A stretch of 64,000 bases of DNA from IMG/VR virus record IMGVR_UViG_3300005264_000002, positions 1 to 64,000 of that record; one strand, 5' to 3'. This DNA is from a virus. The notes beneath the pieces are model-generated. The model worked only from the letters and a program-made list of their open reading frames with translations, searched no databases and had not been told where the DNA came from. A program made the translations under genes and the position numbers. Of the stretch, positions 1,835 to 36,810 are shown piece by piece (within the stretch, counting starts at the first letter, position 1; every line of letters begins with the position of its first letter).

Positions 1835-1900
1835 TTAACTGTATATATTATCCATTGGATAATTAACTGTATATATTATCCATTGGATAATTAAATTAAC
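1831..1900 (+). repeat. 28-bp tandem repeat, 2.5 copies, carrying two late-type promoter motifs
   Basis: An identical 28-base unit occupies 1831-1858 and 1859-1886, followed by a partial third copy. Each full unit holds CTGTATATATT (1839-1849 and 1867-1877), which fits the TGTAWRTAT motif found before virion genes. ATCCATTGGAT in each unit is also nearly palindromic. The array sits directly upstream of the lipoprotein gene at 1919. Confidence 0.8.
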
Positions 1901-1918
1901 TTGATCTAGGAGGTCAAA

Positions 1919-2317
1919 ATGAAATCGTTTCTTTGTTTACTTTTATTGATTGGTTGCTTAACCTTTTCCTTTACTAGCTGTGATAAGAATGAAATCAAAT
2001 CAAAGCTATCAGAAAAAATCTCTCACACTGCTTCTAGAATACTCATTAATGAACTTGAATGTTCTAATGGTGATTTAGTTAGATCAGATATGAAAGCAAG
2101 AACTGATAAGCTTTTTAAAGTAGAAGCAACTAAATCTACTCTTGGGGGATCTAAAGTCCTTATCTGCAAGACTCTATCCAGTGCCATGTTGCCTGTTGTC
2201 TTAGACCTGATGAAATCAGGAAAATTATCTAATTGGGGATGTAAAGTAGAGAAAGGTGAAGCCGCTCTATTGTCCTTAATGTATAAAGGTTGTGATGGAC
2301 TTGCCAAACCTGATTAG
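1919..2317 (+). CDS. Predicted lipoprotein (132 aa)
   Basis: A strong AGGAGG precedes ATG at 1919. Residues 1-21 form a signal peptide (MKS, hydrophobic core, FTSC lipobox) predicting signal-peptidase-II cleavage before Cys21 and lipid attachment. The mature part of about 110 residues is soluble and has four more Cys, which could form disulfides outside the cytoplasm. It is preceded by a doubled late-type promoter motif and followed by a terminator, so it is a single-gene unit expected to be made with the virion genes. Roles in superinfection exclusion or lysis control are possible; none is shown. Confidence 0.8.
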   Translation: MKSFLCLLLLIGCLTFSFTSCDKNEIKSKLSEKISHTASRILINELECSNGDLVRSDMKARTDKLFKVEATKSTLGGSKVLICKTLSSAMLPVVLDLMKSGKLSNWGCKVEKGEAALLSLMYKGCDGLAKPD

Positions 2318-2354
2318 TTACTATATAGTTTAAATTCATTCGATATAAAAGTAT

Positions 2355-2394
2355 GCCCCTCTTGACAGCTAGACCAAGCGAAGAGGGGCTTTTT
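2355..2394 (+). terminator. Rho-independent terminator
   Basis: GCCCCTCTT (2355-2363) pairs with AAGAGGGGC (2381-2389) and is followed by a T run. It closes the lipoprotein transcription unit. Confidence 0.85.
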
Positions 2395-2403
2395 ATTGCC
2401 CAA

Positions 2404-2434
2404 AAAAGATATATCTCATTCTAATCCGTATAAT
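2404..2434 (+). promoter_or_regulatory. Promoter of the AAAAGATA/CGTATAAT class
   Basis: AAAAGATA at 2404-2411 and CGTATAAT at 2427-2434, 15 nt apart, directly after the terminator. Drives the endolysin gene at 2473. Confidence 0.8.
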
Positions 2435-3650: not shown

Positions 3651-3674
3651 ATCTTTTATTTAACAATAAAAGAT
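3651..3674. promoter_or_regulatory. Perfect 10-bp inverted repeat overlapping a promoter
   Basis: ATCTTTTATT (3651-3660) and AATAAAAGAT (3665-3674) form a perfect dyad with a 4-nt loop. The right arm coincides with the AAAAGATA box of the promoter at 3668-3698. No T run follows, so an operator is as likely as a terminator. Confidence 0.55.
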
Positions 3675-3698
3675 AAAACCTTTTCACAAACGTATAAT
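3668..3698 (+). promoter_or_regulatory. Promoter of the AAAAGATA/CGTATAAT class
   Basis: AAAAGATA at 3668-3675 and CGTATAAT at 3691-3698 with a 15-nt gap. Drives the operon beginning at 3734 that includes the DNA methyltransferase. Confidence 0.78.
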
Positions 3699-10323: not shown

Positions 10324-10334
10324 TTGTATATATC
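10324..10334 (+). promoter_or_regulatory. Late-type promoter motif
   Basis: TTGTATATATC fits the TGTAWRTAT consensus and lies 32 nt before ATG 10367. Confidence 0.6.
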
Positions 10335-10627: not shown

Positions 10628-10635
10628 CGTATAAT
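10628..10635 (+). promoter_or_regulatory. CGTATAAT -10 element without a clear AAAAGATA box
   Basis: CGTATAAT at 10628-10635 lies 31 nt before ATG 10667. The expected upstream box position reads TAACTTAA, so it is a weaker member of the class. Confidence 0.55.
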
Positions 10636-13268: not shown

Positions 13269-13279
13269 AATACTTACAA
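13269..13279 (-). promoter_or_regulatory. Late-type promoter motif, minus strand
   Basis: Reads TTGTAAGTATT on the minus strand, 34 nt before the phosphoesterase start codon. TTGTAAGTAT also occurs before the genes at 16165 and 36832. Confidence 0.65.
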
Positions 13280-13329: not shown

Positions 13330-13379
13330 CTGTATATATATCTTACCCATCAGTAGAATCTTCAAGAGTTGTAAATATT
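13330..13379 (+). promoter_or_regulatory. Two late-type promoter motifs before the portal gene
   Basis: CTGTATATATA at 13330-13340 and TTGTAAATATT at 13369-13379, both fitting TGTAWRTAT. They begin the virion gene cluster; ATG 13415 follows 35 nt after the second. Confidence 0.7.
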
Positions 13380-13414: not shown

Positions 13415-16108
13415 ATGTTTAACAGATTCGTCAAAAAAAATAATGCAGATAAAATTCTTCCTTCTCCAGAATCTCAAGAATTAAAGAAAATGAGGATTGA
13501 AGTTGATGAGCTTCAAATCAAATTAGATGATGAGTATGAAGAGTCATTGGCCCTAGACAATTATTACACTAAGGATACATTATCTAGCTCACATGCTGGA
13601 AGTTCAGCTAATTATGATGTAGTTGATGAGGATATCGATTTAAGGACTCTCCAAGCTTTATATGCTTCTGAAGGATGGTTTTATATTGTTGTTCAGGCAA
13701 TTACTAAAGCTATAATCTCCCTCCCTATGAAAATGGAAAAGAAGAAAATCACCAGTGAAGAGGTTGAATTGCCTAATGGTGATACTGAAGAAGTTAAGAA
13801 TGAAATTTGGGTAGAAGCTAATGGAGAACCTGAATTTGATCTTTTTCAACATCCTAATGATATGCAGGGAGCATTAGAATTCTTTATGTTAGTTATCATT
13901 GATTTTCTTACTCTAGGAAATACCTATATATGGATTGATAGGGGAGAAGGTGGAATTGAAGTTGATAGACCAACGGCAAGACTCCAAGAGGCAATGAGAA
14001 GACATGGACATGGTATAAATGGAATCTATAGAATGAATGCGTCCCTTATAGAACCATTAATAGAAGATAAAGAGTTTGGAATATCTGCTTATGGCCTAAT
14101 GTCAGCAGAGGGATATATAAGATTTGAAGCTAGTGAAATGCTACATATTAAAATGCCTCATCCTGGTAATGCTTTTATTGGATTGTCCCCAATTGTTCCT
14201 GTTCTTAAGAATGTTTTAATAGATAGATTTACCAGTGAGCACATGATTAGATTCTATAAGCAAGGTGCTAGACTTGGTGGAGTAATTAAAACATCTAAGA
14301 AGTTAACTAAAAATCAAATAACCAGATTAACTAGAAATTTTGAATCTAAGTTTTCGGGTAAAAAAAATCACCATAAAACTCTTATCCTTCCTGAGGGTAT
14401 GGAGTATGAAATAATAGAGGCCAATCCAGGTGAAACATCCCTCATTGAATTTAGTAAATTTAATAAAGAACCTATTCTTAGCACTTATTCTGTGCCTCCT
14501 GTTCGAGTTGGTCTTTTAGATGGGGCAACTTATGCAAATGCACTGATTCAAGATAAGTCCTTTTGGGAAAATGCTGTTAAACCTGTAACTATGCTTTTAC
14601 AGGATGGCTTTAGTAATTCAGGCAAGATAATTAAAAGAGAGAGAAGATTAAGAATTCGTTGGGATCTTTCAGATGTTGAAGCTCTCCAAGAGAATCTAAA
14701 AGATAAAGTTGAAATAGGTAAAGGATTAGGCGAAAGTGGTTGGTCAATTGATGAAATTAGAGAAAAACATTGGAAGCTAACTAAATTAGGAGGAGATAGA
14801 GGAGGAAATCTTATCCCATTAGTTGAGAGGACTAAAAGGCCAGAAGGATTTAGGAATTTACAATTATCTGCTCCTGGGACTGAAGAAAAAACTCAGCCGG
14901 CCAATGCTCAACCAGATCAAGAAACGGTTAGTGATGTAACTCCTACAGATCAGACTTTTGAACAAAGAGTTGGAGAGTTAACATCAATTAATATTGCTTC
15001 TGGGCTTTCTCCTGCAATAGCTGCTCAAGAAGCTGTTACTAGAACATTAGCAGAAGGATTATTACCAGGAGTCTCTCCAGAAGTCTCTACTGTTGAAAAT
15101 AATGAAGATCCTCAAAATGATACATCAACTAATGAATCGGAAAATGATTCCGAAGCAGAAGAAAATGAGGATGGAGAAGATAAAACTGATGGAGAAGATG
15201 AACCAAATAAAATTCTTTCTCTTCCTGGTATGGATCAAGACACTCTCCAAAATACAGTTAAGGCCCTAACTGGTGAAGGTGTTGATGGATTAATTAAAGA
15301 TAAATTTGAAGAGACTAAAAGCACTTTTGGTAGAATGGAGAAAATCTTTCAAGAAGCTGCGAAATCTATTGTAACTGATAAGAGTGGAAGGATAAATAAG
15401 CGTAAACATCTAATAAAAAGCTTAAGAAATAAAGCTGATGGAGATGATGGACTCCCAACAGGGAAAGATATTGCTAAATTTGCTGAAAAAGAAGCTTCTG
15501 ATCATCCAAGTTCAGTTGACATTAAAGCAATGGAAGTCGGCCATTCAAATACAATAACAACTCATTCTTTGACTTTTCCTAATGAAGAGGCTTTAGAATC
15601 CATAGAATCAGAAGCAGCTAAGAAAATTGTAGGGATAACTGACACAACTAAAGATCAAATAAGAAGTGTTATTGCTGATGCTTTTAGTCAACAGGCCACT
15701 CCTCAACAATTGGCCGATATGATTTCAGATAAGTTTTCTCAGATAATGACTTATAAGGGTCGAGCAATGACAATTGCTAGGACTGAAACTCTTTCAGCAG
15801 TTAGTGAAGGTCAAGAGATAAAAAAGAACCAATTTCTTGAAGAACTTCCAGAATTATCAGATGAGTTAATGAAGGCCTGGATGAATGCAAATGATTCCGA
15901 TGTTAGGGATAGCCATATCAAAACAGGAGATGAGGGGCCGATTCCTCATGATGAAAAATTCTCTAATGGTCTTATGCATCCAAGAGAAAGAGGGGCCAAG
16001 GCCAAAGAAGTAGTTAATTGTCGATGTACAGTTATTTATTTCCATAAAGCAGAACAAGAAGAAATTGAGGAAACTTTAGCTGATGATTTAATTCCATCAA
16101 TAATTTAA
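13415..16108 (+). CDS. Portal protein fused to a Mu gpF-like (MuF) head morphogenesis domain
   Basis: 897 aa, ATG after AAAAGAGGATTCAA. Residues about 70-470 are an HK97-type portal (stem and clip features such as PHPGNAFIGLSPI and SVPPVRVGLL), the dodecameric vertex through which DNA is packaged. An acidic linker rich in Asp/Glu spans about 560-605. Residues about 770-885 are a MuF domain with MTYKGRAMTIARTE, a HPRERGAKAKEV segment and the terminal NCRCT motif. In many phages portal and MuF are separate genes; here they form one chain, placing 12 MuF domains inside the prohead. Confidence 0.92.
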   Translation: MFNRFVKKNNADKILPSPESQELKKMRIEVDELQIKLDDEYEESLALDNYYTKDTLSSSHAGSSANYDVVDEDIDLRTLQALYASEGWFYIVVQAITKAIISLPMKMEKKKITSEEVELPNGDTEEVKNEIWVEANGEPEFDLFQHPNDMQGALEFFMLVIIDFLTLGNTYIWIDRGEGGIEVDRPTARLQEAMRRHGHGINGIYRMNASLIEPLIEDKEFGISAYGLMSAEGYIRFEASEMLHIKMPHPGNAFIGLSPIVPVLKNVLIDRFTSEHMIRFYKQGARLGGVIKTSKKLTKNQITRLTRNFESKFSGKKNHHKTLILPEGMEYEIIEANPGETSLIEFSKFNKEPILSTYSVPPVRVGLLDGATYANALIQDKSFWENAVKPVTMLLQDGFSNSGKIIKRERRLRIRWDLSDVEALQENLKDKVEIGKGLGESGWSIDEIREKHWKLTKLGGDRGGNLIPLVERTKRPEGFRNLQLSAPGTEEKTQPANAQPDQETVSDVTPTDQTFEQRVGELTSINIASGLSPAIAAQEAVTRTLAEGLLPGVSPEVSTVENNEDPQNDTSTNESENDSEAEENEDGEDKTDGEDEPNKILSLPGMDQDTLQNTVKALTGEGVDGLIKDKFEETKSTFGRMEKIFQEAAKSIVTDKSGRINKRKHLIKSLRNKADGDDGLPTGKDIAKFAEKEASDHPSSVDIKAMEVGHSNTITTHSLTFPNEEALESIESEAAKKIVGITDTTKDQIRSVIADAFSQQATPQQLADMISDKFSQIMTYKGRAMTIARTETLSAVSEGQEIKKNQFLEELPELSDELMKAWMNANDSDVRDSHIKTGDEGPIPHDEKFSNGLMHPRERGAKAKEVVNCRCTVIYFHKAEQEEIEETLADDLIPSII

Positions 16109-16127
16109 AAATATATGAAAATCAAAG

Positions 16128-16149
16128 TTGTAAATATGTTGTAAGTATC
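16128..16149 (+). promoter_or_regulatory. Tandem late-type promoter motifs before the protease gene
   Basis: TTGTAAATATG (16128-16138) abuts TTGTAAGTATC (16139-16149), ending 15 nt before ATG 16165. Confidence 0.65.
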
Positions 16150-16164
16150 AATTAAGAGGAATTT

Positions 16165-20507: not shown

Positions 20508-20508
20508 A

Positions 20509-22210: not shown

Positions 22211-22224
22211 TAAAGGATTTTTAA

Positions 22225-22911: not shown

Positions 22912-22918
22912 GTTGATA

Positions 22919-24780: not shown

Positions 24781-25271
24781 AATTAAGCCTTTATACAAAT
24801 GCAGATTTAGTTGTCCGTCAAATGGACAAAGATGCAGCGGCCATTAATAAGGCCATGCAATTTGCTATGTTTAGGGCCGTATCTATTTTAGAAGCTGAGA
24901 TTAAACAAAATATTAGATCAAGATCTGGTTTGCGTGTTAGGACAGGAACTCTTCTAAATTCGATTCAACATCACATATTTATCGGGAATGGGAGAGTTGA
25001 AGCAGAAATAGGTCCAAGAAATGTCCCTTATGCTGCGATTCATGAATTTGGGGGAACTATTCCTTCCAGATTTGTTAGTCCAGTAAGGAAAAAGGCCTTA
25101 AGATTTTTTGATAAAAGTGGAGTCCCAAGATTTTCAAAAGGTCATACCATTCCAGCAATTACTATTAGACCTAGACCATATATCGCTCCTGCTGTTGAAG
25201 CTACTCAAGATAAAATAGCTGAGACTTTTGGAGTATTTATTGAAGAAGCTTTAAAAATGAATGTAGGATAA
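24777..25271 (+). CDS. Tail completion protein (HK97 gp10 / Mu gpG-like)
   Basis: 164 aa, overlapping the connector stop by 4 bases. Layout matches phage virion morphogenesis proteins: an N-terminal helical pair with RVRTGTLLNSIQHHI, the YAAIHEFGGTIP signature and the ITIRPRPYIAPAVEATQDKI C-terminus. Function in the family: neck or tail-completion ring joining head and tail. Confidence 0.85.
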   Translation: MKLSLYTNADLVVRQMDKDAAAINKAMQFAMFRAVSILEAEIKQNIRSRSGLRVRTGTLLNSIQHHIFIGNGRVEAEIGPRNVPYAAIHEFGGTIPSRFVSPVRKKALRFFDKSGVPRFSKGHTIPAITIRPRPYIAPAVEATQDKIAETFGVFIEEALKMNVG

Positions 25272-25274
25272 AAT

Positions 25275-25784
25275 ATGACAAGCTTAACACAACCAGAAGT
25301 ACAAGAAATCGATAGTCAAATCTCAGGCATTAGATCTAAGCGTGGTCGAATAATGGAGGGGTTAAGATTAATTTTTGAACAATCAATTAAAAGATCAAAT
25401 GGATATACTGTTGATTTAGATGAGGCAACTTTTATAATTAGAGGTTGGCAAGATAGAACAAAAGAAACTACTCCTGTTATTTATATTGTTGATGATAACC
25501 AGAATCGTTCAAGAAATGCTGGATGTTTAAGGAATTATGATTGGGTGATTCAGCTATATGTTCATTATCATGGTGACAATTTAATTGAATTTGAAGAATT
25601 TATTGCTGATGTTGAAGAATGTATTGATGATAATAATACTATTGCTCAACAAATTAATAAAATGGAAGTTGAAAATATTATTTCAGATGGACAATTATTT
25701 GCTTCTGAAGATACGGCAGAACATCATTTGGCCCAAATTACTCTTGGGATAATTTACACTCGTAAAGCAAGGAATCCACGTTAA
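25275..25784 (+). CDS. Putative tail terminator protein (169 aa)
   Basis: ATG after TAGGATAAAAT. Mixed alpha/beta; RGWQDRTKETTPVIYIVDDN and a later WVIQLYVHYHGDNL strand resemble tail-terminator and minor neck proteins that cap the tail tube. Position just before the tail tube genes agrees. Assignment by position and fold pattern only. Confidence 0.65.
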   Translation: MTSLTQPEVQEIDSQISGIRSKRGRIMEGLRLIFEQSIKRSNGYTVDLDEATFIIRGWQDRTKETTPVIYIVDDNQNRSRNAGCLRNYDWVIQLYVHYHGDNLIEFEEFIADVEECIDDNNTIAQQINKMEVENIISDGQLFASEDTAEHHLAQITLGIIYTRKARNPR

Positions 25785-25793
25785 AAATCATTG

Positions 25794-25804
25794 GTGTATA
25801 TATA
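25794..25804 (+). promoter_or_regulatory. Late-type promoter motif before tail genes
   Basis: GTGTATATATA in the context TTGGTGTATATATATTCTGT; 42 nt before ATG 25847. Confidence 0.75.
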
Positions 25805-25846
25805 TTCTGTAAACCTCATATCACTACAAAATGGGAAGGAACAGAT

Positions 25847-26458
25847 ATGTCACATTATAGATCAAATTCACACATACAAAATCGACTACTTAAAATTGAA
25901 GATATTTTTCCTGTAAGAGTCTCTGAAGTTCTTGCCTCATTAATTGAGCAAGATTTAACTTTTACAGCAAAAGCTGGAACTGGAGAGCAAGGTAATTTAA
26001 TAAATATCATTTATGTAGCTGGAGCCGTAGCTGGAGCTGAAGTTGTTACTGTTGTTGGGAATAATATCGAAGTTCAAATAGAAGATGGTGTTTCTGATGC
26101 AACTCAAATTAAAGCTGCTCTTGATGGAGAGCCTCTTGCACTTGCTACAATCACAACTTCAATAAGTGGAGTTGGAGCAAATCCTCAGTCTGTTTTTACT
26201 CCTGCTAAGTTTCTTGCTGGTGGAGTTACAGAAATACCTGGTAAGCAAAGATCTTTTGTTTTTCGGCACTTAGCAACTGATGTAAGAGTTGATGGAAGAG
26301 AAATGACCAGTGTTGATTTTCAAGCAAATGGTGGTTTAGATATTACTTTTGATGCTGGTGGATCATCTTTTACTGTCGTTAAAGCAGATATAACAATTAT
26401 TAATCGTTTAAGAACTAAGAGATATCTCGTAGATGCCTCTGCAGTTACAATAGTTTAA
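25847..26458 (+). CDS. Virion protein built around the dispersed beta domain (203 aa)
   Basis: ATG after AAGGAACAGAT. Residues about 32-126 are a copy of the dispersed domain (LIEQDLTF...GNLINIIYVAGAVAG...IEVQIEDGVSDATQIK) and are by eye about 70% identical to residues 195-289 of the tail protein at 26795. The remaining 75 residues are beta-rich. Its place between tail terminator and tube genes suggests a tail-tube-associated or decoration protein. Confidence 0.7.
   Translation: MSHYRSNSHIQNRLLKIEDIFPVRVSEVLASLIEQDLTFTAKAGTGEQGNLINIIYVAGAVAGAEVVTVVGNNIEVQIEDGVSDATQIKAALDGEPLALATITTSISGVGANPQSVFTPAKFLAGGVTEIPGKQRSFVFRHLATDVRVDGREMTSVDFQANGGLDITFDAGGSSFTVVKADITIINRLRTKRYLVDASAVTIV
25940..26224 (+). 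repeat. Dispersed structural domain, copy in the 25847 gene
   Basis: About 95 codons. Shared landmarks: QDLTF, GNLINIIY, AGxEVVTVV, I(E/D)DGVS, TTSISG and a closing LAGG. Compare 23746-24031, 27377-27661 and several copies in 34802-35720. Confidence 0.85.
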
Positions 26459-26467
26459 GGATAAGTC

Positions 26468-26782
26468 ATGAGTAAAGGTAAATATTTCTTAAAAACTTTA
26501 GAGAAAGCAATTTATGCAAATGAAGCTTTTCTTAATGATGAGAAAATTGAGCTTGTAAGTCCATGTTGTGATGGGAATCGAGTCGCTCATGCTGATGGGG
26601 ATTTTGTTTGTGATAAAATTAAAGTAGTTCTTAAAGGCAAAAAAAGAATCGCTTATTTTTTTACAGCACCTATTCTTGATGAAGCTCCTGCTAAGGAAAA
26701 ACCTGTTAAGAAAAAAACAGCTAAAAAAGTAACCAAAAAAACAGCTAAAAAAGTAACCAAAAAAACAGCTAAAAAAGTATAA
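26468..26782 (+). CDS. Small protein with histone-like Lys/Ala repeat tail (104 aa)
   Basis: ATG after AAGGATAAGTC. A globular part with CCDGNRVAHADGDFVC (three Cys, possible metal site) is followed by about 35 residues in which the 8-residue unit KKTAKKVT repeats nearly three times. Such tails occur in histone H1-like bacterial proteins and bind DNA. Found between neck and tail tube genes, it could contact the DNA end in the tail or be a scaffold. Function unproven. Confidence 0.65.
   Translation: MSKGKYFLKTLEKAIYANEAFLNDEKIELVSPCCDGNRVAHADGDFVCDKIKVVLKGKKRIAYFFTAPILDEAPAKEKPVKKKTAKKVTKKTAKKVTKKTAKKV
26711..26779 (+). repeat. 24-bp coding tandem repeat, 2.9 copies
   Basis: An identical 24-base unit at 26711-26734 and 26735-26758, plus 21 bases at 26759-26779, encodes the KKTAKKVT repeats. 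The exact identity suggests recent slippage expansion. Confidence 0.85.
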
Positions 26783-26794
26783 GGAAGGATAATT

Positions 26795-28372
26795 ATGAGA
26801 AATCTTAATTCACGTTCATTTGAAGTTTTAGGAGTTGACCAAAAAATTTGGTTGTCTCAAGAAACTGGAGGATATGGAGAGGCTGCGACAGGGGGCCTAA
26901 TCCCTGATGAGACAGGAGCAATCGAACACATAACTGCTGATGTCAAATTTGATATTCCTAGAGAGGATTCTGCAGCAAGATCAGGTAGATCTTTAGTTAC
27001 TCGATTGAGTGGAAAGATCAATGTAGAATTTTCTTTTGAAAGCTATATTATTCCTGGTACTCCTGATGCACTTGGGAATCCAACTTTTCCTCCTACTCAT
27101 GCTTTTATTCTTTCAGCTTTTGGAGATGTTGATACGTCTAATCCTGCTGAAATCGTTTATAAGCTTTCTAGGTTAAATGATAAATCTTTCAGACTTATTG
27201 AAGAAGCAACTCATTACGCTAGGCTTACTACTGGTTGCGTAATTGATACGGTGACTTTTTCTCTCCCTGGAGATGGGAAAGCTCAATTTAAGGCTGATGG
27301 ATTTGCTCAGAATTCTTTTATAGCTGGTGAAGGTAATTTGTCTCAAGCTATAACTGGTGTTGAGCAATTGGCCCAATTAATAGAGCAAGATTTAACTTTT
27401 GATGCCAAGCCAGGTTCAGGAATTAATGGAAATCTTATCAATATTATTTATATTGCTGGTGGTGTTGCTGGATCTGAGGTTGTTACTGTTGTTGATAATG
27501 ATATTGAAGTGCAAATTGATGATGGTGTTTCCAGTGCTCTTGAAGTTAAAACTGCTTTAGATGGGAATATTGATGCAGCAGCCTTAATTACCACAACTAT
27601 AAGTGGTGTCCCTGGTGGTTCACAGTCAATATTTACTCCTGCTAAATATCTAGTAGGTGGGCTTGGAACTAATGATATCAAAGTTGGAGATGGTGAAGGC
27701 AACAGATATGAAGTTGGAGCTTTAATTGATATTATCCAAGGTGTTGATGGCAACACAATCATAGAATCTCAAAGAGAAATCACTGTTGTTTATGATATCA
27801 CGAGTCCTAATGCTGATATCATAACAGTTGGTGGAGCTGCTCTTGCTGCTTCTGTAATTGGAGATTTTGTTATTGGCCATGCTCCAGAAAATTATGATCC
27901 AATAACTTCTGAAAATGCTCTTTTAGGTTTAAAGGGATCTTTTTCAGTAGCAGGATATCAACTTTCTGAATGTGAAATGATTACTGCTGAAATAGCAATA
28001 GCAAATAATTATACTAAGAAAGATTTCATTTATGGAACTAATAAAATTTGTGGATATATCCCTGATAAAAGACGTTCTGTAACTTTGAAAGTAGATGTTC
28101 TTTTGAATAAAAATAACTTCTCTTTCTATATGAGAAATAAGAAGTTTGTTGCTGAGAATGTGACTTTGACTCTTGAGCCAAATGATATTCCTGCTCCATC
28201 TTTCGCAAGTTCTGTGGGAAGGACTTTTGAATTTAATCTTCCAAAAGTAGAGTTTAATATTCCGTCTATTGAGAATCCTGGTGATTCTTATGTGACTCTA
28301 AGCCTTGAAGGTGTAGCTTTGGCAACATCTACAAATAGCTTAGATGATGAAATGACTCTTACCATTAAGTAA
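26795..28372 (+). CDS. Putative major tail tube protein with inserted dispersed domain (525 aa)
   Basis: ATG after AAGGAAGGATAATT. N-terminal 190 residues and C-terminal 200 residues are beta-rich and resemble tail tube or tail fibre-forming proteins; residues 195-289 are a copy of the dispersed domain, acting like an outward-pointing decoration. Position two genes before the tape measure and directly before the frameshifted chaperone pair is that of the tube protein in siphoviruses. A terminator follows, matching a need for high expression. Confidence 0.75.
   Translation: MRNLNSRSFEVLGVDQKIWLSQETGGYGEAATGGLIPDETGAIEHITADVKFDIPREDSAARSGRSLVTRLSGKINVEFSFESYIIPGTPDALGNPTFPPTHAFILSAFGDVDTSNPAEIVYKLSRLNDKSFRLIEEATHYARLTTGCVIDTVTFSLPGDGKAQFKADGFAQNSFIAGEGNLSQAITGVEQLAQLIEQDLTFDAKPGSGINGNLINIIYIAGGVAGSEVVTVVDNDIEVQIDDGVSSALEVKTALDGNIDAAALITTTISGVPGGSQSIFTPAKYLVGGLGTNDIKVGDGEGNRYEVGALIDIIQGVDGNTIIESQREITVVYDITSPNADIITVGGAALAASVIGDFVIGHAPENYDPITSENALLGLKGSFSVAGYQLSECEMITAEIAIANNYTKKDFIYGTNKICGYIPDKRRSVTLKVDVLLNKNNFSFYMRNKKFVAENVTLTLEPNDIPAPSFASSVGRTFEFNLPKVEFNIPSIENPGDSYVTLSLEGVALATSTNSLDDEMTLTIK
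27377..27661 (+). repeat. Dispersed structural domain, copy in the tail tube gene
   Basis: Closest relative of the copy at 25940-26224: both start LIEQDLTF and end FTPAK(F/Y)L(A/V)GG. Confidence 0.85.
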
Positions 28373-28380
28373 TTTTCTAT

Positions 28381-28409
28381 AAAAGGGGTCTAGTTTTAGG
28401 CCCCTTTTT
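28381..28409 (+). terminator. Rho-independent terminator after the tail tube gene
   Basis: AAAAGGGG (28381-28388) pairs with CCCCTTTT (28401-28408), an A/U-tract hairpin able to act in both directions. Confidence 0.85.
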
Positions 28410-28427
28410 ATCTGTGACTCCCCGAAG

Positions 28428-28438
28428 TGGTATATATG
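28428..28438 (+). promoter_or_regulatory. Variant late-type promoter motif
   Basis: TGGTATATATG differs from TTGTATATAT at one position; it lies just after the terminator and 51 nt before ATG 28490. Confidence 0.55.
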
Positions 28439-28489
28439 TTATGAGATGGCGAACCAAAAACATATTAATCATAACTTAAGGAGTTAAAA

Positions 28490-28957
28490 ATGTCTTTGAA
28501 ACGCTTAAACCCTAATTCTATTTTTAAAATTTGTTCTACTCAAGATCCTGCTATTGATAAAGAGGCAACAGGAGAAGAGAATTTAACGAAATATTCTGAA
28601 ACTCACGATATAGCTTTGCTTAAATTCGTTGAAGGGAAACTTCCTACAATTTTTCATGTAAAAAATATTTCTCCAGAAGATGAAGCTGAAATCCAAGAGG
28701 ATCATTATGTTATCCAAATGCCAGATCTCGACAAATTAGAAGGCGAAAAACTTAAAAAAGCAAAACCATCAGTAAAACAGGTTAAACAACAACAAATGTT
28801 TATGAAATATTTTAAAGCTGGAGTTAAGCATATTGAAGATGATGGGAAGATTGAACCAACATTCACTCCAGGAGAATGGCCATTGTCAATTCAACAAGAG
28901 ATCGGTGGATATATTATGATCAAATCTGCTTTAGGAGCAGAAGAAAAAAAGTCTTAA
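28490..28957 (+). CDS. Tail assembly chaperone, zero-frame product (gpG-like, 155 aa)
   Basis: ATG after AAGGAGTTAAAA. Lies between tail tube and tape measure genes, the fixed place of siphoviral tail chaperones that coat the tape measure during assembly. The gene ends GAA GAA AAA AAG TCT TAA, where A AAA AAG (28945-28951) is a textbook -1 slippery heptamer in the correct frame. Most ribosomes would stop at 28955-28957 and give this 155-residue form. The helical, Lys-rich sequence agrees. Confidence 0.82.
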   Translation: MSLKRLNPNSIFKICSTQDPAIDKEATGEENLTKYSETHDIALLKFVEGKLPTIFHVKNISPEDEAEIQEDHYVIQMPDLDKLEGEKLKKAKPSVKQVKQQQMFMKYFKAGVKHIEDDGKIEPTFTPGEWPLSIQQEIGGYIMIKSALGAEEKKS

Positions 28958-29334
28958 CTGTCATGATGGGGCTGGCATTAGATCAAAATCAAAATGTCAA
29001 ATTAGATTGCTCCAATTGTGACTTGGGACTTCAAAATTTAAGGAATTGCGGTGGGAGGTTTAGAGAGAAGTCTAGATCTCCTATTAGAGTAAATGAAGAA
29101 ATTTATTGGATATGTCCAAGATCTTTGATTTTTAATAGGAAGGTAGAAAGTCAACTCTTCAATCTCTATATGACTTGTAAGGACAATAATGTTTTTCCTT
29201 ATGGAGCAGAGCCGCTTAAACAAACGTCCTTTTGTTTAGATGTGTTTAAGTTTTTAGATGGAATTTTAAGTGAATATCACGCCAGAAAAGACAAAGAACA
29301 CAAAGCTAAAATGGAGAAGGCCAATAAGATTTAA
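28490..29334 (+). CDS. Tail assembly chaperone, -1 frameshift fusion product (gpGT-like, about 281 aa)
   Basis: A -1 slip at 28945-28951 joins the first 154 codons to the frame running from GTC at 28951 to the stop at 29332-29334, adding 127 residues. The added domain has CSNCDLGLQNLRNCGG (three Cys) and a basic helical end. It matches the lambda G/GT scheme, in which the T part binds the tape measure. The downstream frame could alternatively start at ATG 28963 or 28966, but no ribosome binding site precedes these. Confidence 0.78.
28945..28951 (+). promoter_or_regulatory. Programmed -1 ribosomal frameshift site A AAA AAG
   Basis: X XXY YYZ heptamer in frame with the upstream gene and one codon before its stop; the overlapping downstream frame is exactly -1. 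Confidence 0.82.
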
Positions 29335-29346
29335 TAGGGAAATGAG

Positions 29347-32300
29347 ATGGCAATTGAAAGGGAAATAAGTGTAAATGTTGTTGGTACGGATGAGAATACC
29401 AGCAAAACGATACAAAAAGTATCTCAGGCTATAGCTAATCAGCTTGTTAAGGCCACTGCAGCGGCTAATGCTCAATTCAAGCAGATGGAAACCAATACAG
29501 ATAAGACTAATCAGGTTCTCCAGCAAAATCACAAAGCGGCTCAAAAAGTATCAGAACAAAATCAAATGATTGCAGAAAGTCTTGAAGAAATTAAAGGCAA
29601 AGAAGGCATCATTGCCACTATTACATCATCTATGGAAGGTCTTGTTAAAACTGGACTAGGTATAGCTGGAGCTTTTGCTGGGGTAGTCGCAATTGATAAA
29701 ACCTTTATTCCTCTTAATGCAATCATGGGGAGCTTAACCAATACTATGATTGGTGCTCAAAATAGAGCTGCTGCAATGTCCACAATGTTTAGGCAAACAG
29801 CCTCCAAGACATCAATCTTAACTCAAAAATTCAATCAACTAAAATCAAATGGCATTGATGTTATGATCAAGGGATTGAATGTTGGGAAGACAGCTCTTAC
29901 CAATACAAGGGCAGTACTTCAAAATTTTACATTCTCTGCTAAAGCATCTGGAGTTATCTTAGCTGGAACCTCTAAAGCCTTTCTATCTGCGTCTAAACAT
30001 ACAGAATTATTTGAAAAAGGATTGGCTGGGACTGTAGTAAGAGCATCATTGGCCGGTGCTGCTTTTAATATGTTGGGGATCAACTTATTAAGATCAGATA
30101 GTATTTTAGGAAAAATGGCAGGAGTAACTCTAATAGCATTAGCAGCCTCTTTGGCCGGTGCTGTCTTTGTCGTTAAACAATTATTGGCCGCAGTCGGTGG
30201 ATTGATTCAAAGTATCGGTGACAATTTAACCGCTGCAACTGAAAAGCAGATTGAATTATTTGCTAAGGCCGAAAAGAATACTTTTGCTTTTACTCAAACT
30301 GTTACCAGTTATGCTGAATCGGCGGAAGATGCGGCTGCTCAAACAAATATGTGGAATAGCTTTATTGCTGATACGAGTGCGGCAACAGGAGAAACAACAG
30401 ACTCTCTTCAAGCGTTAGTAGCTGAGACAGTTGCGGCGACAGAAGCAGCTCATCTTAATGAAATTCAAATGAAAGAATTAATTAATAGAACAATTGATCT
30501 TTCAGAAAGAGCTCATAAACCAGCAATGGATACATTAGTCGCATTGATTAATGGAATGAACGGAGCTGGTCAGTCTGTTATCTCTCTTGGATTGCATATG
30601 AGCGAATCTGCTATCCAACATTCTAAGTTAAATGCAGAAGTAAAAAAGAACTTCAAAAATCTAAGCGATTCTGAAAAGGCTCAAGCTCGATTTGCTGTAC
30701 TTATGGAGCAAGCAGGGAAGGCTGCTGGATTTGCTTCTAATAATGCAGATCTTTATAGTAAGTCAGTTAAGCTTCAAGAAAATGCTCAAAAAGAGCTTAA
30801 TGCTGAACTTGGTAGGGGTGCAGCGATCATTAATGGCCAATATAGATTTGGTCTGGCCACAGTCACTAGAATGATGACAAATTTTATCAAACCTATTCTT
30901 CCTGCTATTGGATTCTTAGAAGCATTAGGAGGACGGTTCCTTCAGGTTACAGGATTTATCACTAAAAATATTTTGATAGTTGGATTTGCAATTAGTACAT
31001 GGAAAGCTTTCAATATTTTATTGGCCAAAGGTGTTGCTGGTGGAGTATTTGCTCAACAATTACCATTTCTAAATAAATCTATACTCCAAATTGTGGCCAG
31101 TCTTGGAGCAACTAATGCAAATTTAGGAAGTCTCAAAGGTGTTGCACAAACAACTTTTCAAATCCTTAAATCTCAATCTCTAAATGCAGTCAAATCAATG
31201 CTTGGACTTGAAGCTACTGCTAAATTAACAGCAAAAACTTTTTCTACTCAATTAGTTAAAGGATTAAAGGCTGCAGGAAAAGGTGTATTGCAATTTGGAA
31301 AAAGACTTTTAGTATTATTAGCGAATCCTATTGTCATTAAGTTTGCCCTTATTTCTGCAGCAATCTTTTTAGTAGTTAAAGCTCTTCAGAAGATTGAAGA
31401 AAGAACAGGCATATTTTCAAAGGTATGGGAAAAATTCTCTGCTCAATTCGCTGGGTCTTCTGAGATGTTTCAACCTGTTTTAGATATTTTGAAAAAGATA
31501 GGAGACATCTTAACGACTGTTATTGGAGCTGCAGTTAAGTTTGTCGCTGCTGCTTTATCTGTTTTTATTGGAAATATATTAAGAACTGTTAAAGGTCTTA
31601 TGTTGCTCTCAAATGTACTATCATTTATGTTGCCTGATGCAATGGTGGCCAGTGCTGAAAGTTTAGAGTCAATTAATAAGCAAATAGATGTTTTAAATAA
31701 AACAGCGAAAGATTTTGCAAAAGAAGGAGCCGCTGATCTATTAGGAATCTTTGTTTCTTCAGCAGAAGCAGCAGATGGTGCAATCCCAATGGTAAAAGAT
31801 TGGACTAAAGAATTAGCCAGTGCAGCAGCCGGTGTTGGAAAAATGGAGGAAAAAGCTAAAAAGGCTTTTGAGGCAGTTAAAGATTTTACTCCTAAAATCA
31901 ATATGGCCCAATTCCAAAAAGAAACAGCTCAATTTGATACCGCTCTAAAAGGATTAAAGAAAAAACTTGAAGCTCAAAAAATTGTCTTAATCAAAGCAGG
32001 AGCAAATGAAGAAGAGATTAAAACAGTAGAAACTAGGATTTCCCAGACAACAGAAGCAATTAAAGGACTTCAACTAAGATCTGCTAAAGAAATTCGATCT
32101 GCAAGACTTAAAATTGTAGAAACTGAATTAACATCTAGAAAAAATAAAATTTTTACTGTTGAGCAAGAAATTAAACAAATGAGACTTGATTTTGCTAATG
32201 AAACTAGATCACAAGCTATCGAAATTGAGACTCAAAGGATATTAGAGCAAAGGAATCTCGCAACAGATGCAGCCAAGGAAGGGATAAGCGTTCGTCAAGC

Positions 32301-33492
32301 TGCGATTCTTGAAGCAAATAATGTTGAGTTAGAAGCTTTTAGAAGCGGTCTTCAAGCACAAAGTGACTTAGCAATCAATATGGAGACTCAAAAGGCCTTA
32401 GAATTGGCAAATATTAGAGCTGGAGCTTTAGCTGGAACTCCTGCAGGAGCAGGGGCCAGTGAAGATGTTGAGACATTACAAGCTAAAGTAAAACAGGAGC
32501 AATTGGCCCAATTAAGGGAAAATGATCGAATCTCTGAGCAAGAACATCAGCAAGCATTAACTCAGATTAAAATAAGTCAAATGCAGGCAAGAACTGAAAG
32601 AGAAATTGAGCTGCAAAACAAAAGATCTGAAGCACTAGGATTAACTGAAGCAGGGTTAGAATCTCGTTTAGCTCAAAATGACATAGTTTTCCAGATGGAA
32701 ATGGAGCAAATGAGACTCCAGAAAGAAACTATATTTGAAAATGAAGTCCAATTTCAAGAATCAATGAAAGAAATGGAAATTCAGAATCAAATAAGCAAAT
32801 CTGAAACTAGACAGAGATTTATTCAAGAAGAGATTGATCAAAATATTAAGAAAAAAGATAGTTTCGCTGTTTCTTTAGCTCAAATTCGATTAGCTCAGGC
32901 CAAACATGGCCAAGTAATGGGAACATTATTAGGAGTTCAGCAAACAGCAGAATTTAAAGGAGTTCAAGGAGCACTTAGCAATCTAGCTACTTTAAGAAAT
33001 TCTAAAGGGAGAAAAGAATTTGAAATTGGAAGAGCTGCTGCTTTGGCAGGAGCCGGTGTAAATATCGCCCAGGGAATAATTGCTTCATTAGCTCCTCCTC
33101 CAATTGGTGCTGGGCCATTAATGGGGCCAATTTTAGCTGGAACAATTGCCGCTGCTGGTGCTGTTCAGATGGCCCAGATTAGTGCTCAAAAATATCCTGG
33201 TGGACAGGCCGATCAAGGTATGGATTCAATTCCAAAATCATTAAATGGTAAATCTTTTATCTTATCTGCAGGAGAAAGAGTTGTTCAGCCTGAAGCAAAT
33301 AAGAAATTAACTTCTTTCTTAGATCAACAAGAGAAATCTGGTGGAGGAGGGAATATTTTCCATATTCATATTGGATCTGTTGATAGTGATGATAGAGTTG
33401 AGCAAGTTGCTCAAAGAGTTAAGAGTATCATTAGAGAAGACTCTGAGAGAGGTGAACCAATTATAAGTGCTAGGGGAGTCGTTAATGAGTAA
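29347..33492 (+). CDS. Tail tape measure protein (1381 aa)
   Basis: The longest gene here, directly after the chaperone pair. Long helical stretches alternate with hydrophobic Gly/Ala-rich segments near residues 95-120, 205-300, 500-690 and 1215-1280, the pattern of tape measure proteins that fix tail length and cross the membrane during DNA entry. Residues about 845-1210 are coiled coil. The C-terminus has PGGQADQGMDSIPKSLNGKS, resembling the C-terminal region seen in other tape measure proteins. Length would correspond to a tail of about 200 nm by the usual 0.15 nm per residue rule (inference). Confidence 0.92.
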   Translation: MAIEREISVNVVGTDENTSKTIQKVSQAIANQLVKATAAANAQFKQMETNTDKTNQVLQQNHKAAQKVSEQNQMIAESLEEIKGKEGIIATITSSMEGLVKTGLGIAGAFAGVVAIDKTFIPLNAIMGSLTNTMIGAQNRAAAMSTMFRQTASKTSILTQKFNQLKSNGIDVMIKGLNVGKTALTNTRAVLQNFTFSAKASGVILAGTSKAFLSASKHTELFEKGLAGTVVRASLAGAAFNMLGINLLRSDSILGKMAGVTLIALAASLAGAVFVVKQLLAAVGGLIQSIGDNLTAATEKQIELFAKAEKNTFAFTQTVTSYAESAEDAAAQTNMWNSFIADTSAATGETTDSLQALVAETVAATEAAHLNEIQMKELINRTIDLSERAHKPAMDTLVALINGMNGAGQSVISLGLHMSESAIQHSKLNAEVKKNFKNLSDSEKAQARFAVLMEQAGKAAGFASNNADLYSKSVKLQENAQKELNAELGRGAAIINGQYRFGLATVTRMMTNFIKPILPAIGFLEALGGRFLQVTGFITKNILIVGFAISTWKAFNILLAKGVAGGVFAQQLPFLNKSILQIVASLGATNANLGSLKGVAQTTFQILKSQSLNAVKSMLGLEATAKLTAKTFSTQLVKGLKAAGKGVLQFGKRLLVLLANPIVIKFALISAAIFLVVKALQKIEERTGIFSKVWEKFSAQFAGSSEMFQPVLDILKKIGDILTTVIGAAVKFVAAALSVFIGNILRTVKGLMLLSNVLSFMLPDAMVASAESLESINKQIDVLNKTAKDFAKEGAADLLGIFVSSAEAADGAIPMVKDWTKELASAAAGVGKMEEKAKKAFEAVKDFTPKINMAQFQKETAQFDTALKGLKKKLEAQKIVLIKAGANEEEIKTVETRISQTTEAIKGLQLRSAKEIRSARLKIVETELTSRKNKIFTVEQEIKQMRLDFANETRSQAIEIETQRILEQRNLATDAAKEGISVRQAAILEANNVELEAFRSGLQAQSDLAINMETQKALELANIRAGALAGTPAGAGASEDVETLQAKVKQEQLAQLRENDRISEQEHQQALTQIKISQMQARTEREIELQNKRSEALGLTEAGLESRLAQNDIVFQMEMEQMRLQKETIFENEVQFQESMKEMEIQNQISKSETRQRFIQEEIDQNIKKKDSFAVSLAQIRLAQAKHGQVMGTLLGVQQTAEFKGVQGALSNLATLRNSKGRKEFEIGRAAALAGAGVNIAQGIIASLAPPPIGAGPLMGPILAGTIAAAGAVQMAQISAQKYPGGQADQGMDSIPKSLNGKSFILSAGERVVQPEANKKLTSFLDQQEKSGGGGNIFHIHIGSVDSDDRVEQVAQRVKSIIREDSERGEPIISARGVVNE

Positions 33493-34297
33493 TACGCAAG
33501 GAATAAGCTTTTTATATGAATTTGATTTGGGAAACAAGCATGTTGATGATCCTGCTCAAAATATTTTATCAGTAACCTCTACGGCTCCAGGTGATTTTGA
33601 TCCTGCGAACATGACAAGTGAAGCAACAAGAGAAAGATGGCGATCTTCAGGGGTATTGGTAACTCAAGAAATTGTATGGAAAGCAGAACAAGCATCTAAT
33701 ATTGATACCTTTGCTATCTTAGGACATAATTTTTCTGAGGATGCTGTTATCCAATTACAAGCGAATATTTCTAATAATTTTGCTGCTCCTCCAGTTACAA
33801 TAAATATCCCTTGGAGAAAAGAAAATATTGTTTGGTTAAATGAGCTTGGTGGAGAATATGAATATTATAAGATCTCTATTCTTGATCCAACAAATCCATG
33901 TGGATATATTGAAATTGGAAGAGTTATTGGAGGAAGAGCATTTACCATAACTAATAATGAAGATATTAAAGATGCATTTAATATTGGCAAAAAAGATATG
34001 GCCGATCAAATGAAGACAGAGGGATTTTTTAGACAGTCAAATCAAAGGATAAAGGTTAGAACTTTATCAGCTTCATTTGCAAAATTAGAAACCAAATTAG
34101 GACTATCTAACGAAAATTTCTTAGGACTCAGGGAAATGTTCGATTATGTTGGTGAGACTGTTCCGTTACTAACAATCCTTGATCGAAATAATCCTGATCT
34201 TTTTACTGCTTGGGGACAATTCGATTCGATCCCTTCAGAATCGTTTACAACTAACGAATTTATGACATCTTCTTTTAAATTTAGTGAAGTTTTCTAA
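33485..34297 (+). CDS. Distal tail-like protein (270 aa)
   Basis: ATG at 33485 overlaps the tape measure stop by 8 bases and has AGGGGAG at correct spacing; an in-frame ATG 18 bases upstream lacks this. Beta-rich, with WKAEQASNIDTFAILGHNFSEDAVIQL, a signature of tail-tip proteins found straight after tape measure genes in many siphoviruses. Likely forms the ring at the tail end. Confidence 0.75.
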   Translation: MSNTQGISFLYEFDLGNKHVDDPAQNILSVTSTAPGDFDPANMTSEATRERWRSSGVLVTQEIVWKAEQASNIDTFAILGHNFSEDAVIQLQANISNNFAAPPVTINIPWRKENIVWLNELGGEYEYYKISILDPTNPCGYIEIGRVIGGRAFTITNNEDIKDAFNIGKKDMADQMKTEGFFRQSNQRIKVRTLSASFAKLETKLGLSNENFLGLREMFDYVGETVPLLTILDRNNPDLFTAWGQFDSIPSESFTTNEFMTSSFKFSEVF

Positions 34298-34300
34298 TTG

Positions 34301-34311
34301 GTGTATATATT
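34301..34311 (+). promoter_or_regulatory. Late-type promoter motif before fibre genes
   Basis: GTGTATATATT in the context AATTGGTGTATATATT; 47 nt before ATG 34359. Confidence 0.72.
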
Positions 34312-34358
34312 AAATAAGCCAATCAAAACTATCCCAATATTAGAAGAGAGAATATAGT

Positions 34359-36797
34359 ATGTCACAGAACATATTCAAAAATCCATTTGTATCATCTCCT
34401 CCAACTTTAACAGGAGCATCAGTTGGAAATGGGACATTAACGATAGATCGTTTGACTCATTTCACAATAAACCAAGATTATACTGCTGTTTGTACAGCGA
34501 TAACTCCTTTTACTGTTTTTAAAATTATTGGAAGTTTAGATGGATCTGTTGGAGTTGCTGTTGTTGGGACTCAATTCTATGATCAAGATCTTAAGGTTTT
34601 CTTAACTATTAATCAAGGTCCAACTACTTTTCAAATTGGTGATACTTTTGAATTTACTCTTGATCAAGGGACAGATCTAAATAGAGAAAATATTGATTTA
34701 TATGATGAATTACCTCAAAAGAATTTTGGGGTAGGTGTTCCAGGCTCAATATCTGGTGATTATAATATCAGATTAAATACTACTGGAATTGATGCTTTTA
34801 GAATTATCCAAGACTTAAAATTCACTTCTAAAATCTCAGGTGCAGAAGGGAATGAAATTTCTATAGAATATCTTGCTGGATCTGTTTTGAGTCCTGCATC
34901 ATTAATTATCCAAGATTTAACTTATACTGCTTCACCAGGTGAAGCTGGGAATGGAATATCAATTCTATATACTCAATTCACTCCTGGAGTTGCGGCCACT
35001 AGAGATGTTCAAGATATTAATTGGACAGCAGATAATATTGGGGTAAATGGAAATTATATTTCAATGGTTTATATTGGTGGAGGAACTGCTGGTTCTGAAA
35101 TTGTTAATGTAACAGGGACAGGAACAGGCGGCGATCCATATATAATCACAGTCACTATTGAGGATGGAGTTTCTTCCGCTGATCAAATTAGATTGGCCGT
35201 TGGACTTCATGGAGTGGCTGGACCGCTAGTTGATGGGATTGCTCTTGGGACAGGATTAGAGCCTCAAAGTATTCAAGCTCAGATCTTTCTTTTAGGTGGA
35301 TTAGATCCAATTGGTGACGCTGGAAATGAAGTTGTCAATGTAGTTGCTCTTCAGATTGAAGTTATTTTAGAAAGTGGAGTTTCAACTGCTCAAAATGTTT
35401 ATGATGCTGTTTTTGCCTCTCCTGCTGCTTTAGCATTAGTTACCCCTACAATTTCAGGGACTCCAGCTACAACTCAAACTGCCCCTGTTGCTGAGGCAAA
35501 TTTAACAGGTGGAGCAGATGATGTTGGATTACCAGGATCAGAAGTTGTCAATGTATCTGACAAGGCCATTGAGGTCACTTTTAATGATGGATTATCTACT
35601 GCTGATCAAATTAAAACAGCAATTGAAGGAGATATTGATGCTAATGCCCTGGTTACAGTAACTATTGAAGGTGTTGGGGCCAATTTCCAAGACTCTCCTG
35701 TTGTTAGAACATTTCTTAGATCGGGACAATTGGCCGGGACTTTTGCTTTTAACTCTGAAGAGTTAACCGTTCCTGGTTCTTTTTTTGAAGGTAATGCCAA
35801 TATTTTAGCAAACAATCTTAACCTTCAAAATGAATTAAATGTTGAAGGAGAGTCCGAATTTAGAGGAAAAGTTAAATTCGATGATGCTATTCCAGCAAAT
35901 AATTCAGGTCCATTAATCGAAAATAATCAAAAAACAATTAATAATCTTATCCAAAATGGAAAAGTTTTTCTTCATACAGTAAATGATGAAAAAATGGAGT
36001 GGTCAGATCCTGCTGGGACATTAACGCTTTTAGATGACATTAATATTGTATTTTGTGAAACTAATATTGTTAATACAATTCTAGCTACTGATGGGCCATT
36101 TGTTATTGCTGATGGTGAGCATTTATATGTGACAGTTGATAGAGAGAATAATGTTAATCTTACGACTACAATAGCTTCTACTGTTCCAAATAGTCCTAAT
36201 GGAGAAAATATTTTTAGATTAGTTTCTAGGGTAGGTGATTCATTAGTCTGGTTTGATAATACTCTTCAAACTGAAGGCAAGAATATTAGAATAGGTGAAG
36301 GTGGAGCTGGTGGAGTTGGCTATCAAGAAAAGTTAGGAAATGGCGATGGAGCAGTTACAGCTTTTGGCCCTTTAACTTTTATTCCATCTTCTGAAAAATC
36401 CATTCTTGTTTTTTCAAATGTTATTAATTTTGTAACAACTGATTGGACATATAATGTAGTCCAAAATCAAATTGACTTTATAACACCACCTCCTTTGGGA
36501 GCAGAAATTTATGTCTTTTATTTAACAGAAGGTGAAACTTTATCAGTTCCTACTCCAAGTGGAGTAGAACGTGTTGAATATAGAGATATAACTTTAGCTG
36601 AAGAAACTGCCAAACAATTGACATTAGCAAATCTTCCTGCTGAACCAACTAAAGTTAAATTAGATATTATTGGTGGATCAGCTCAAAGATATACGGTTGA
36701 TTTTATTGTTACAGGAAGCATTTTGTCATGGAGTGGTTTAAGACTTGATGGAGTCTTAGTTGAAAATAGTGAAGTAAGGATAAATTATTATTCTTAA
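34359..36797 (+). CDS. Tail fibre protein with multiple dispersed domains (812 aa)
   Basis: ATG after AAGAGAGAATATAGT. Residues 150-455 hold several full or partial copies of the dispersed domain (IIQDLKF, LIIQDLTY, VQDINW, then GNEVVNVV and GSEVVNVS units each ending GG). Residues about 470-540 look like a trimeric fibre shaft (NNLNLQNELNVEGESEFRGKVKF). The C-terminal 170 residues carry two units of a beta domain that ends in a Y strand, also present in the genes at 36832 and 37903. Likely a host-contacting tail fibre. Confidence 0.78.
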   Translation: MSQNIFKNPFVSSPPTLTGASVGNGTLTIDRLTHFTINQDYTAVCTAITPFTVFKIIGSLDGSVGVAVVGTQFYDQDLKVFLTINQGPTTFQIGDTFEFTLDQGTDLNRENIDLYDELPQKNFGVGVPGSISGDYNIRLNTTGIDAFRIIQDLKFTSKISGAEGNEISIEYLAGSVLSPASLIIQDLTYTASPGEAGNGISILYTQFTPGVAATRDVQDINWTADNIGVNGNYISMVYIGGGTAGSEIVNVTGTGTGGDPYIITVTIEDGVSSADQIRLAVGLHGVAGPLVDGIALGTGLEPQSIQAQIFLLGGLDPIGDAGNEVVNVVALQIEVILESGVSTAQNVYDAVFASPAALALVTPTISGTPATTQTAPVAEANLTGGADDVGLPGSEVVNVSDKAIEVTFNDGLSTADQIKTAIEGDIDANALVTVTIEGVGANFQDSPVVRTFLRSGQLAGTFAFNSEELTVPGSFFEGNANILANNLNLQNELNVEGESEFRGKVKFDDAIPANNSGPLIENNQKTINNLIQNGKVFLHTVNDEKMEWSDPAGTLTLLDDINIVFCETNIVNTILATDGPFVIADGEHLYVTVDRENNVNLTTTIASTVPNSPNGENIFRLVSRVGDSLVWFDNTLQTEGKNIRIGEGGAGGVGYQEKLGNGDGAVTAFGPLTFIPSSEKSILVFSNVINFVTTDWTYNVVQNQIDFITPPPLGAEIYVFYLTEGETLSVPTPSGVERVEYRDITLAEETAKQLTLANLPAEPTKVKLDIIGGSAQRYTVDFIVTGSILSWSGLRLDGVLVENSEVRINYYS
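34802..35720 (+). repeat. Tandem array of dispersed structural domains inside the tail fibre gene
   Basis: At least three units in tandem, more diverged than the copies at 25940 and 27377. Landmarks QDL(K/T)(F/Y), GNxIS(I/M), GSE(I/V)VNV, (I/L)xDGxS and closing L(L/T)GG recur. Confidence 0.75.
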
Positions 36798-36799
36798 TA

Positions 36800-36810
36800 T
36801 TGTAAGTATA
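36800..36810 (+). promoter_or_regulatory. Late-type promoter motif
   Basis: TTGTAAGTATA directly after the fibre stop codon, 21 nt before ATG 36832. Confidence 0.68.

Follow-up and report, generated by a model that had tools for sequence, protein, structure and literature searches.

What directs transcription of the virion genes in phage A, the 76,086-base virus record IMGVR_UViG_3300005264_000002, whose bases 1 to 64000 form the stretch of DNA studied here (the window; the remaining 12,086 bases, designated L002, were also analyzed)? Upstream of virion genes stands the 9-base motif TGTAWRTAT (M2), and the original prediction held that it marks a late promoter class, for which a small sigma-like protein encoded in the window (S1) was the candidate reader, in a switch resembling that of phage T4. 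On the basis of the distribution of M2 in phage A and its relatives and of the sigma-like genes found alongside it, M2 is probably the single -10-like element of late promoters, which would be read by the host core RNA polymerase together with a phage-encoded sigma factor of the extracytoplasmic function (ECF) type, most likely a second sigma-like protein (S2) encoded beyond the window (Table 1).

M2 boxes upstream of virion genes

The window contains 15 exact matches to TGTAWRTAT on both strands, against 3.34 expected, a number reached in none of 100 shuffles. Over the whole record, 16 matches were found, with 12 on the plus strand and 1 on the minus strand in gaps between genes and 3 inside genes. 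Gaps make up 6.4% of the record's bases, yet they contain 13 of the 16 matches; the motif is not equally frequent inside genes, the outcome that the original prediction had named as contrary to it. All 13 gap sites point the same way as the gene downstream, including the lone minus-strand site, which precedes the minus-strand phosphoesterase gene. When the gaps were dinucleotide shuffled, with their AT-richness kept, a mean of 0.32 sense hits (maximum, 3) was obtained, compared with 12 real ones, and none of 300 shuffles reached that count. The gene starts listed in the original prediction all have M2 upstream, in two copies each for gene 1919, the portal gene, and the protease gene and with one mismatch for gene 28490. 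Finally, M2 heads virion units in 7 of 10 cases, and M1, a second promoter-like motif described below, does so in 0 of 12 (Fisher p 7e-4).

Relatives of phage A were retrieved by way of the DnaE-like polymerase and the capsid and comprised phages B (G001; 79,485 bases), C (G003; 77,040 bases), D (G011), E (G012), and F (G015; 81,383 bases), as well as the shorter pieces N (G014), O (G016), Q (G004), H44, H48, and H53. An unbiased expectation-maximization (EM) motif search in the gaps of phage B ranked rTTGTAwATAT first (EM results for phages A, B, and C were judged against dinucleotide shuffles of the gaps and those for phages D, E, and F against Markov controls). The comparison with related phages that the original prediction had suggested supports the late promoter class, in that M2 is kept before orthologous virion genes of the AT-rich relatives. 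Within 240 nt of gene starts in eight AT-rich records (A, B, C, N, O, H44, H48, and H53), the 8-base core TGTAWRTA was found at the portal orthologues in seven of eight (the exception, O, has only 27 nt upstream, and the box of H44 lies 230 nt from the called start), at the protease orthologues likewise in seven of eight (the exception being H48), at the capsid orthologues in five of seven (the remaining two carry TGTATAAA), and at all four orthologues of gene 25847. The count was two of five for gene 34359 (two others carry TGTATAAA), one of four for gene 36832 (two others carry TGTAAAAA), one of five for gene 28490, and zero of five for gene 26795. No TGTAWRTA box was present at any of 20 control genes, these being the large terminase, DnaB, DnaE, SSB, RecA, and helicase genes of phages A, B, and C and two of them in phage F as well.

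In phage F, the EM search gave a different box, TCGTATAATTAMT, which scored 60.7 against at most 39.2 in Markov controls and precedes the orthologues of the portal gene, gene 26795, and gene 34359, but not those of the capsid and protease genes. Its sites in that record (19371, 25965, 30198, 55800, 57318, 63160, 67156, and 78728) are all sense oriented and in gaps. EM variants in the GC-richer phages D and E (GTAWATA or CGGTWATAT) are not claimed, their scores being 38.2 against 31.5 to 41.6 in Markov controls for phage D and 47.6/47.7 against 35.5 to 48.9 for phage E.

We then aligned the 42 gap sites with a gene start within 125 nt. Conservation reaches past the selected letters, to rTTGTAWATAT, and no -35 element is conserved, no column upstream of position -3 exceeding 0.19 bits in the 42 sites. 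The distance from box to start codon is 25 to 116 nt (median, 46), or 25 to 84 nt in phage A (start sites are approximate, since gene calling relied on a simple script); because it is never shorter than 25 nt, space is left for a transcription start site and a ribosome site. The shape of M2 thus fits what a one-element late promoter should look like.

Sigma-like proteins and the probable reader of M2

The sigma-like open reading frame picked out by the original prediction is real: S1 matches Pfam Sigma70_r2 with 26.2 bits (cutoff, 24) and Sigma70_r4_2 with 19.8 bits, below the cutoff of 25.7 for that family. S2 is encoded three genes before the large terminase gene (67615 to 69024 of the record); it has reciprocal best hits in phages B (47%) and C (43%), and a search with an S2 alignment also detects it in phages D and E. 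Matches to Sigma70_r2 occur in 7 of 11 records (one each in Q, B, and F and two each in A, C, D, and E), the other four being pieces of 10 to 27 kb, and in all seven a sigma-like gene lies near the large terminase gene (in phage F, a few genes ahead of it). S1 and S2 are related to each other (profile comparison, 97.6%; E, 3e-12), and the sigma of phage F has diverged (78.6% when its profile is compared with that of S2). A model of S2 built from a six-sequence alignment (mean predicted local distance difference test score [pLDDT], 74.0; predicted template modeling score, 0.50) resembles a sigma2 domain at residues 16 to 103 (8b3z; Z 9.1, 78 residues, 2.8 A) and a sigma4 domain at residues 127 to 196 (3mzy; Z 9.9, 69 residues, 2.6 A); the structure model of S1 is poor (pLDDT, 57.7). 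As modeled, S2 is a member of the sigma-70 family of ECF-like architecture, with sigma2 and sigma4 domains and little else. Those matches of the S2 model in the viral library that carry a name are for the most part sigma factors of phages or subunits of RNA polymerase; gp55 and gp33 chains are not among the Foldseek/VIA matches listed for it, which is not counted against them. All seven S2 proteins matched PHROG 1740 (A, 2.4e-5; B, 1.6e-10; C, 0.0022; Q, 2e-5; E, 6.7e-7; D, 0.0061; F, 4.6e-6), although these matches are remote and those of D and C marginal.

The strongest argument for pairing S2 with M2 is the different box of phage F, whose sigma is diverged. We propose that S2 is probably expressed along with the replication genes, by way of an upstream M1-type promoter, and that it would then direct the host core polymerase to the virion units, each starting 25 to 84 nt after its M2 box. 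That S1 reads M2 instead, with S2 having another role, seems unlikely to us: S1 has regions 2 and 4 and a better match to PHROG 1740 (5.5e-9) than S2 of phage A does, but phage B, with its 127-nt terminal repeat, carries M2 before the same virion genes, and its sole sigma hit is the S2 orthologue. Since phage B looks whole and keeps M2 with S2 alone, it speaks against S1 as a necessary reader, while all relatives for which a sigma was detected have an S2 counterpart. S1-like proteins, moreover, differ greatly from phage to phage where they occur (17 to 23% identity). Of the original prediction, a phage-specific late promoter class that a phage sigma factor reads is well supported, by its enrichment, orientation, conservation, and absence at replication genes; the choice of S1 as the reader is not.

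Slightly less likely still is that M2 needs no phage sigma and serves the primary holoenzyme of the host as an extended -10 promoter. TGTATATAT resembles a -10 box and has TG as its first two letters, and a scan for sigma-70 promoters lists weak pairs near gene 1919. However, no -35 element accompanies the 42 M2 sites, M2 does not resemble TATAAT and the genome has a distinct CGTATAAT class besides, and sigma-70-like pairs are not in excess in bases 1 to 20000 of the window (72, against 84.9 in shuffles).

Comparison with known one-box late promoters

The ECF sigma factor gp36 of phage phiEco32 is reported to read both middle and late promoters, with the sequence tAATGTATAtA, 6 to 8 nt before the start (PMC4281155; PMC4331800). 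Within bases 1 to 49,000 of the phiEco32 sequence, AATGTATA boxes were seen at 9102, 26015, and 36705 on the plus strand and at 36632, 42937, and 46862 on the minus strand. The likeness to phage A extends to a lone -10-like box that shares the TGTATATA core (TGTATA) and lacks a -35 element, to its location before late units, and to a small phage sigma factor; gp36, like S2, matches PHROG 1740 (1.9e-45). The two differ in that phiEco32, a podovirus of 77.5 kb, uses gp36 for middle and late promoters alike, whereas phage A carries a gene for a tape-measure protein and two for sigma-like proteins and has a distinct two-part motif upstream of its replication genes. The late promoters of Staphylococcus Kayvirus (TGTTATATTA) are described as long -10 boxes that lack a -35 element, cluster around virion genes, and are attributed to a sigma factor of the phage (PMC7698491). 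Their one-box shape is that of M2, with different letters and in large Herelleviridae myoviruses.

The T4 late promoter TATAAATA is, like M2, one box without a -35 element before virion genes. The T4 late sigma factor gp55 is not known to have a region 4. A true T4-type late system in phage A, consisting of a gp55-like sigma, a gp33-like coactivator, a sliding clamp, and a TATAAATA-type box, seems to us very improbable. In its favor, TGTAAATA is one base off TATAAATA, both are single boxes near the start codon, and S2 of phage A weakly touches PHROG 234, the gp55 family (0.0016; 6.7e-5 for one genome). That family is hit by T4 gp55 with 2.9e-69, though by none of the 10 other records, and S2 has a sigma4 domain; its profile compared with gp55 yields a probability of 3.8%. 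Furthermore, no match to DNA_pol3_beta (the beta clamp) was found in six records, a search that a diverged clamp could escape, and none of the eight matches to the exact TATAAATA lies in a gap. The T4-like late switch of the original prediction is hence borne out in the shape of the promoter and not in kinship with gp55, and phiEco32 gp36 is the nearer precedent.

M2 could also be an operator or a signal in the 5' leader RNA of late genes rather than a promoter, an explanation that we regard as improbable, if less so than a T4-type system. The boxes stand upstream of start codons, some are doubled (at gene 1919, the portal gene, and the protease gene), and related TGTAAA...TTTACA palindromes occur in phage C and in Q. 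On the other hand, the box is asymmetric and sense oriented, its letters match those of mapped phiEco32 promoters, a phage sigma co-occurs with it, and phage F, with its diverged sigma, has the changed virion box TCGTATAATTAMT. The palindromes themselves, which look operator-like, lie upstream of 63259 and 64628 in phage C, where they are followed by GAATTAACAGCAAC repeats, and at 17799 in Q.

Several observations weigh against M2 as a late promoter box read by S2. Of the 10 units headed by M2, three are located outside the virion block, and some virion gaps of 30 to 389 nt (17086, 19183, 19448, and 29347) have no M2. Phage C has no 9-base match in its gaps, only the 8-base core, and the GC-richer phages D and E have S2 and no exact M2; with S2 present and no significant motif, they count against a fixed box. 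The alignment of 42 sites left out 16 further 8-mer gap hits without a gene start within 125 nt, and two of its members (C+64557 and Q+17799) lie within the palindromes and could be elements of another kind. A sigma4 domain is present in S2 even though the sites share no conserved -35 element, and S1 coexists with S2 in phage A, so S1 could share M2. Finally, comparing the S2 profile directly with the single gp36 sequence (hhalign) gave a probability of only 0.2% (E, 0.32), so that the kinship of S2 and gp36 rests on the PHROG profile.

A second promoter-like class and the phage group

Replication and other non-virion genes of phage A are headed by M1, CGTATAA(T/C/G), with AAAGATA starting 22 nt upstream in 8 of 12 sites and 23 nt upstream in one; in three, it is off register or absent. 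In three genes (48338 on the minus strand, 51969, and 52436), the ATG follows the TATAAT of M1 by exactly 5 nt, and two of the three lack an alternative in-frame start within 105 nt. This arrangement suggests leaderless mRNAs for the helicase, a small protein, and the DnaE-like polymerase. M1 was not seen in the gaps of phages B and C. Since phage B lacks both S1 and CGTATAAT in its gaps, S1 may read the M1 class; however, phages C, D, and E have S1-like genes yet no M1 motif in their gaps, which counts against this. A search of the viral contig collection with the M1 pattern returned 14 stretches with one match each, taken as chance, and no other M1 phage was found.

We tentatively speculate, as a possibility rather than an expectation, that this undescribed phage group runs a two-sigma cascade, in which S1 would read AAAGATA-15 nt-CGTATAAT middle promoters and S2 the one-box late promoters, with S2 and its box drifting together across relatives. 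The boxes form a series, from TGTAWATAT in phages A and B through TGTAWATA or TGTATAAA in phage C to TCGTATAATTAMT in phage F.

Table 1. M2 and M1 sites, sigma-like genes, and the virion gene block of phage A (window positions unless marked "record")
Feature	Position	Strand	Context
M2 TGTATATAT	1840..1848	+	Before gene 1919; copy 1 of tandem 28-bp repeat
M2 TGTATATAT	1868..1876	+	Copy 2; 51 nt from ATG of gene 1919
M2 TGTATATAT	10325..10333	+	42 nt before gene 10367
M2 TGTAAGTAT	13270..13278	-	44 nt before minus-strand phosphoesterase gene (starts 13234)
M2 TGTATATAT	13331..13339	+	84 nt before portal gene
M2 TGTAAATAT	13370..13378	+	45 nt before portal gene; box also in comparison of relatives
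M2 TGTAAATAT	16129..16137	+	36 nt before prohead protease gene; box also in comparison of relatives
M2 TGTAAGTAT	16140..16148	+	25 nt before prohead protease gene
M2 TGTATATAT	17623..17631	+	67 nt before major capsid gene; box also in comparison of relatives
M2 TGTATATAT	20306..20314	+	25 nt before gene 20331
M2 TGTATATAT	25795..25803	+	52 nt before tail-region gene 25847; box also in comparison of relatives
Degenerate M2 GGTATATAT, one mismatch	28429..28437	+	61 nt before gene 28490; phage B has TGTATATAT before orthologue
M2 TGTATATAT	34302..34310	+	57 nt before gene 34359; box also in comparison of relatives
M2 TGTAAGTAT	36801..36809	+	31 nt before minor-tail-like gene 36832
Virion gene block, putatively served by M2	13415..46358	+	Pfam, PHROGs; several genes without family match
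S1, sigma-like, 192 aa, regions 2 and 4	51349..51927	+	Pfam; candidate of original prediction
S2, sigma-like, 196 aa	record 65967-66557 (L002:1967-2557)		Beyond window; Sigma70_r2 25.6 bits
M1 pair AAAGATA / CGTATAAC	932..961	+	Before gene 992
M1 pair AAAGATA / CGTATAAT	2405..2434	+	Before amidase (endolysin-like) gene 2476
M1 pair	3669..3698	+	Before gene 3734
M1 -10 box CGTATAAT without AAAGATA	10628..10635	+	Before gene 10667
M1 pair	48344..48373	-	Before minus-strand helicase gene (48338)
M1 pair (CGTATAAG)	48715..48745	+	Before DnaB-like helicase gene 48774
M1 pair	51934..51963	+	Before gene 51969
M1 -10 box without AAAGATA	52423..52430	+	Before DnaE-like polymerase gene 52436
M1 pair	56267..56296	+	Before SSB-like gene 56340, head of gene run later including S2
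Further M1 sites	record 69053, 72601		Outside window

Gene calling gave 103 genes in the whole record, 101 of them on the plus strand, with 93.9% of the sequence coding. Portal, protease, capsid, head-tail adaptor, tape-measure, minor tail, and tail fiber proteins were recognized in the virion block by Pfam and PHROGs matches. With tape-measure and minor tail matches present and no contractile sheath found in the six records searched, a siphovirus-like body is plausible for phage A. The longer records of the group measure about 54 to 81 kb, and exact terminal repeats (127 bases in phage B, 141 in phage C, and 127 in phage F) make those three records look whole. Searching the viral contig collection with a terminase alignment recovered the near relatives again, along with many distant ones, and alignment searches of the bacterial genome collection found no relative of the capsid or terminase. 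As tblastn queries, S1 and S2 gave no match in the phage collection, and nothing was confirmed in the viral contig collection with S1 and the portal protein as single queries. No publication on this phage group was found in the literature searched.

Three further features of the window deserve mention. The tandem 28-bp repeat at 1839 to 1895 duplicates the M2 box before the lipoprotein-like gene 1919, which adjoins the amidase gene and may be a lysis gene. Genes 23626, 25847, 26795, and 34359 (23626 to 36797) share repeated segments of 33 to 58% identity, that is, a repeated domain across tail-region proteins. The regions upstream of genes 7526 and 8365 are nearly identical and contain TTGACA, perhaps as early promoters of the host type or as a control region present in two copies.

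For an undescribed environmental phage group, a transcription program can be read from sequence alone, with a candidate sigma gene and its putative promoters named. If S2 and its box covary, as phage F suggests, the group would be a natural experiment on how a sigma factor recognizes promoters that lack a -35 element, and if the two-sigma cascade were true, it would offer a natural series from which the reading of such a promoter by an ECF-type sigma that has a sigma4 domain could be decoded. The one-box late promoter pattern of T4 would also recur here with a quite different sigma factor.

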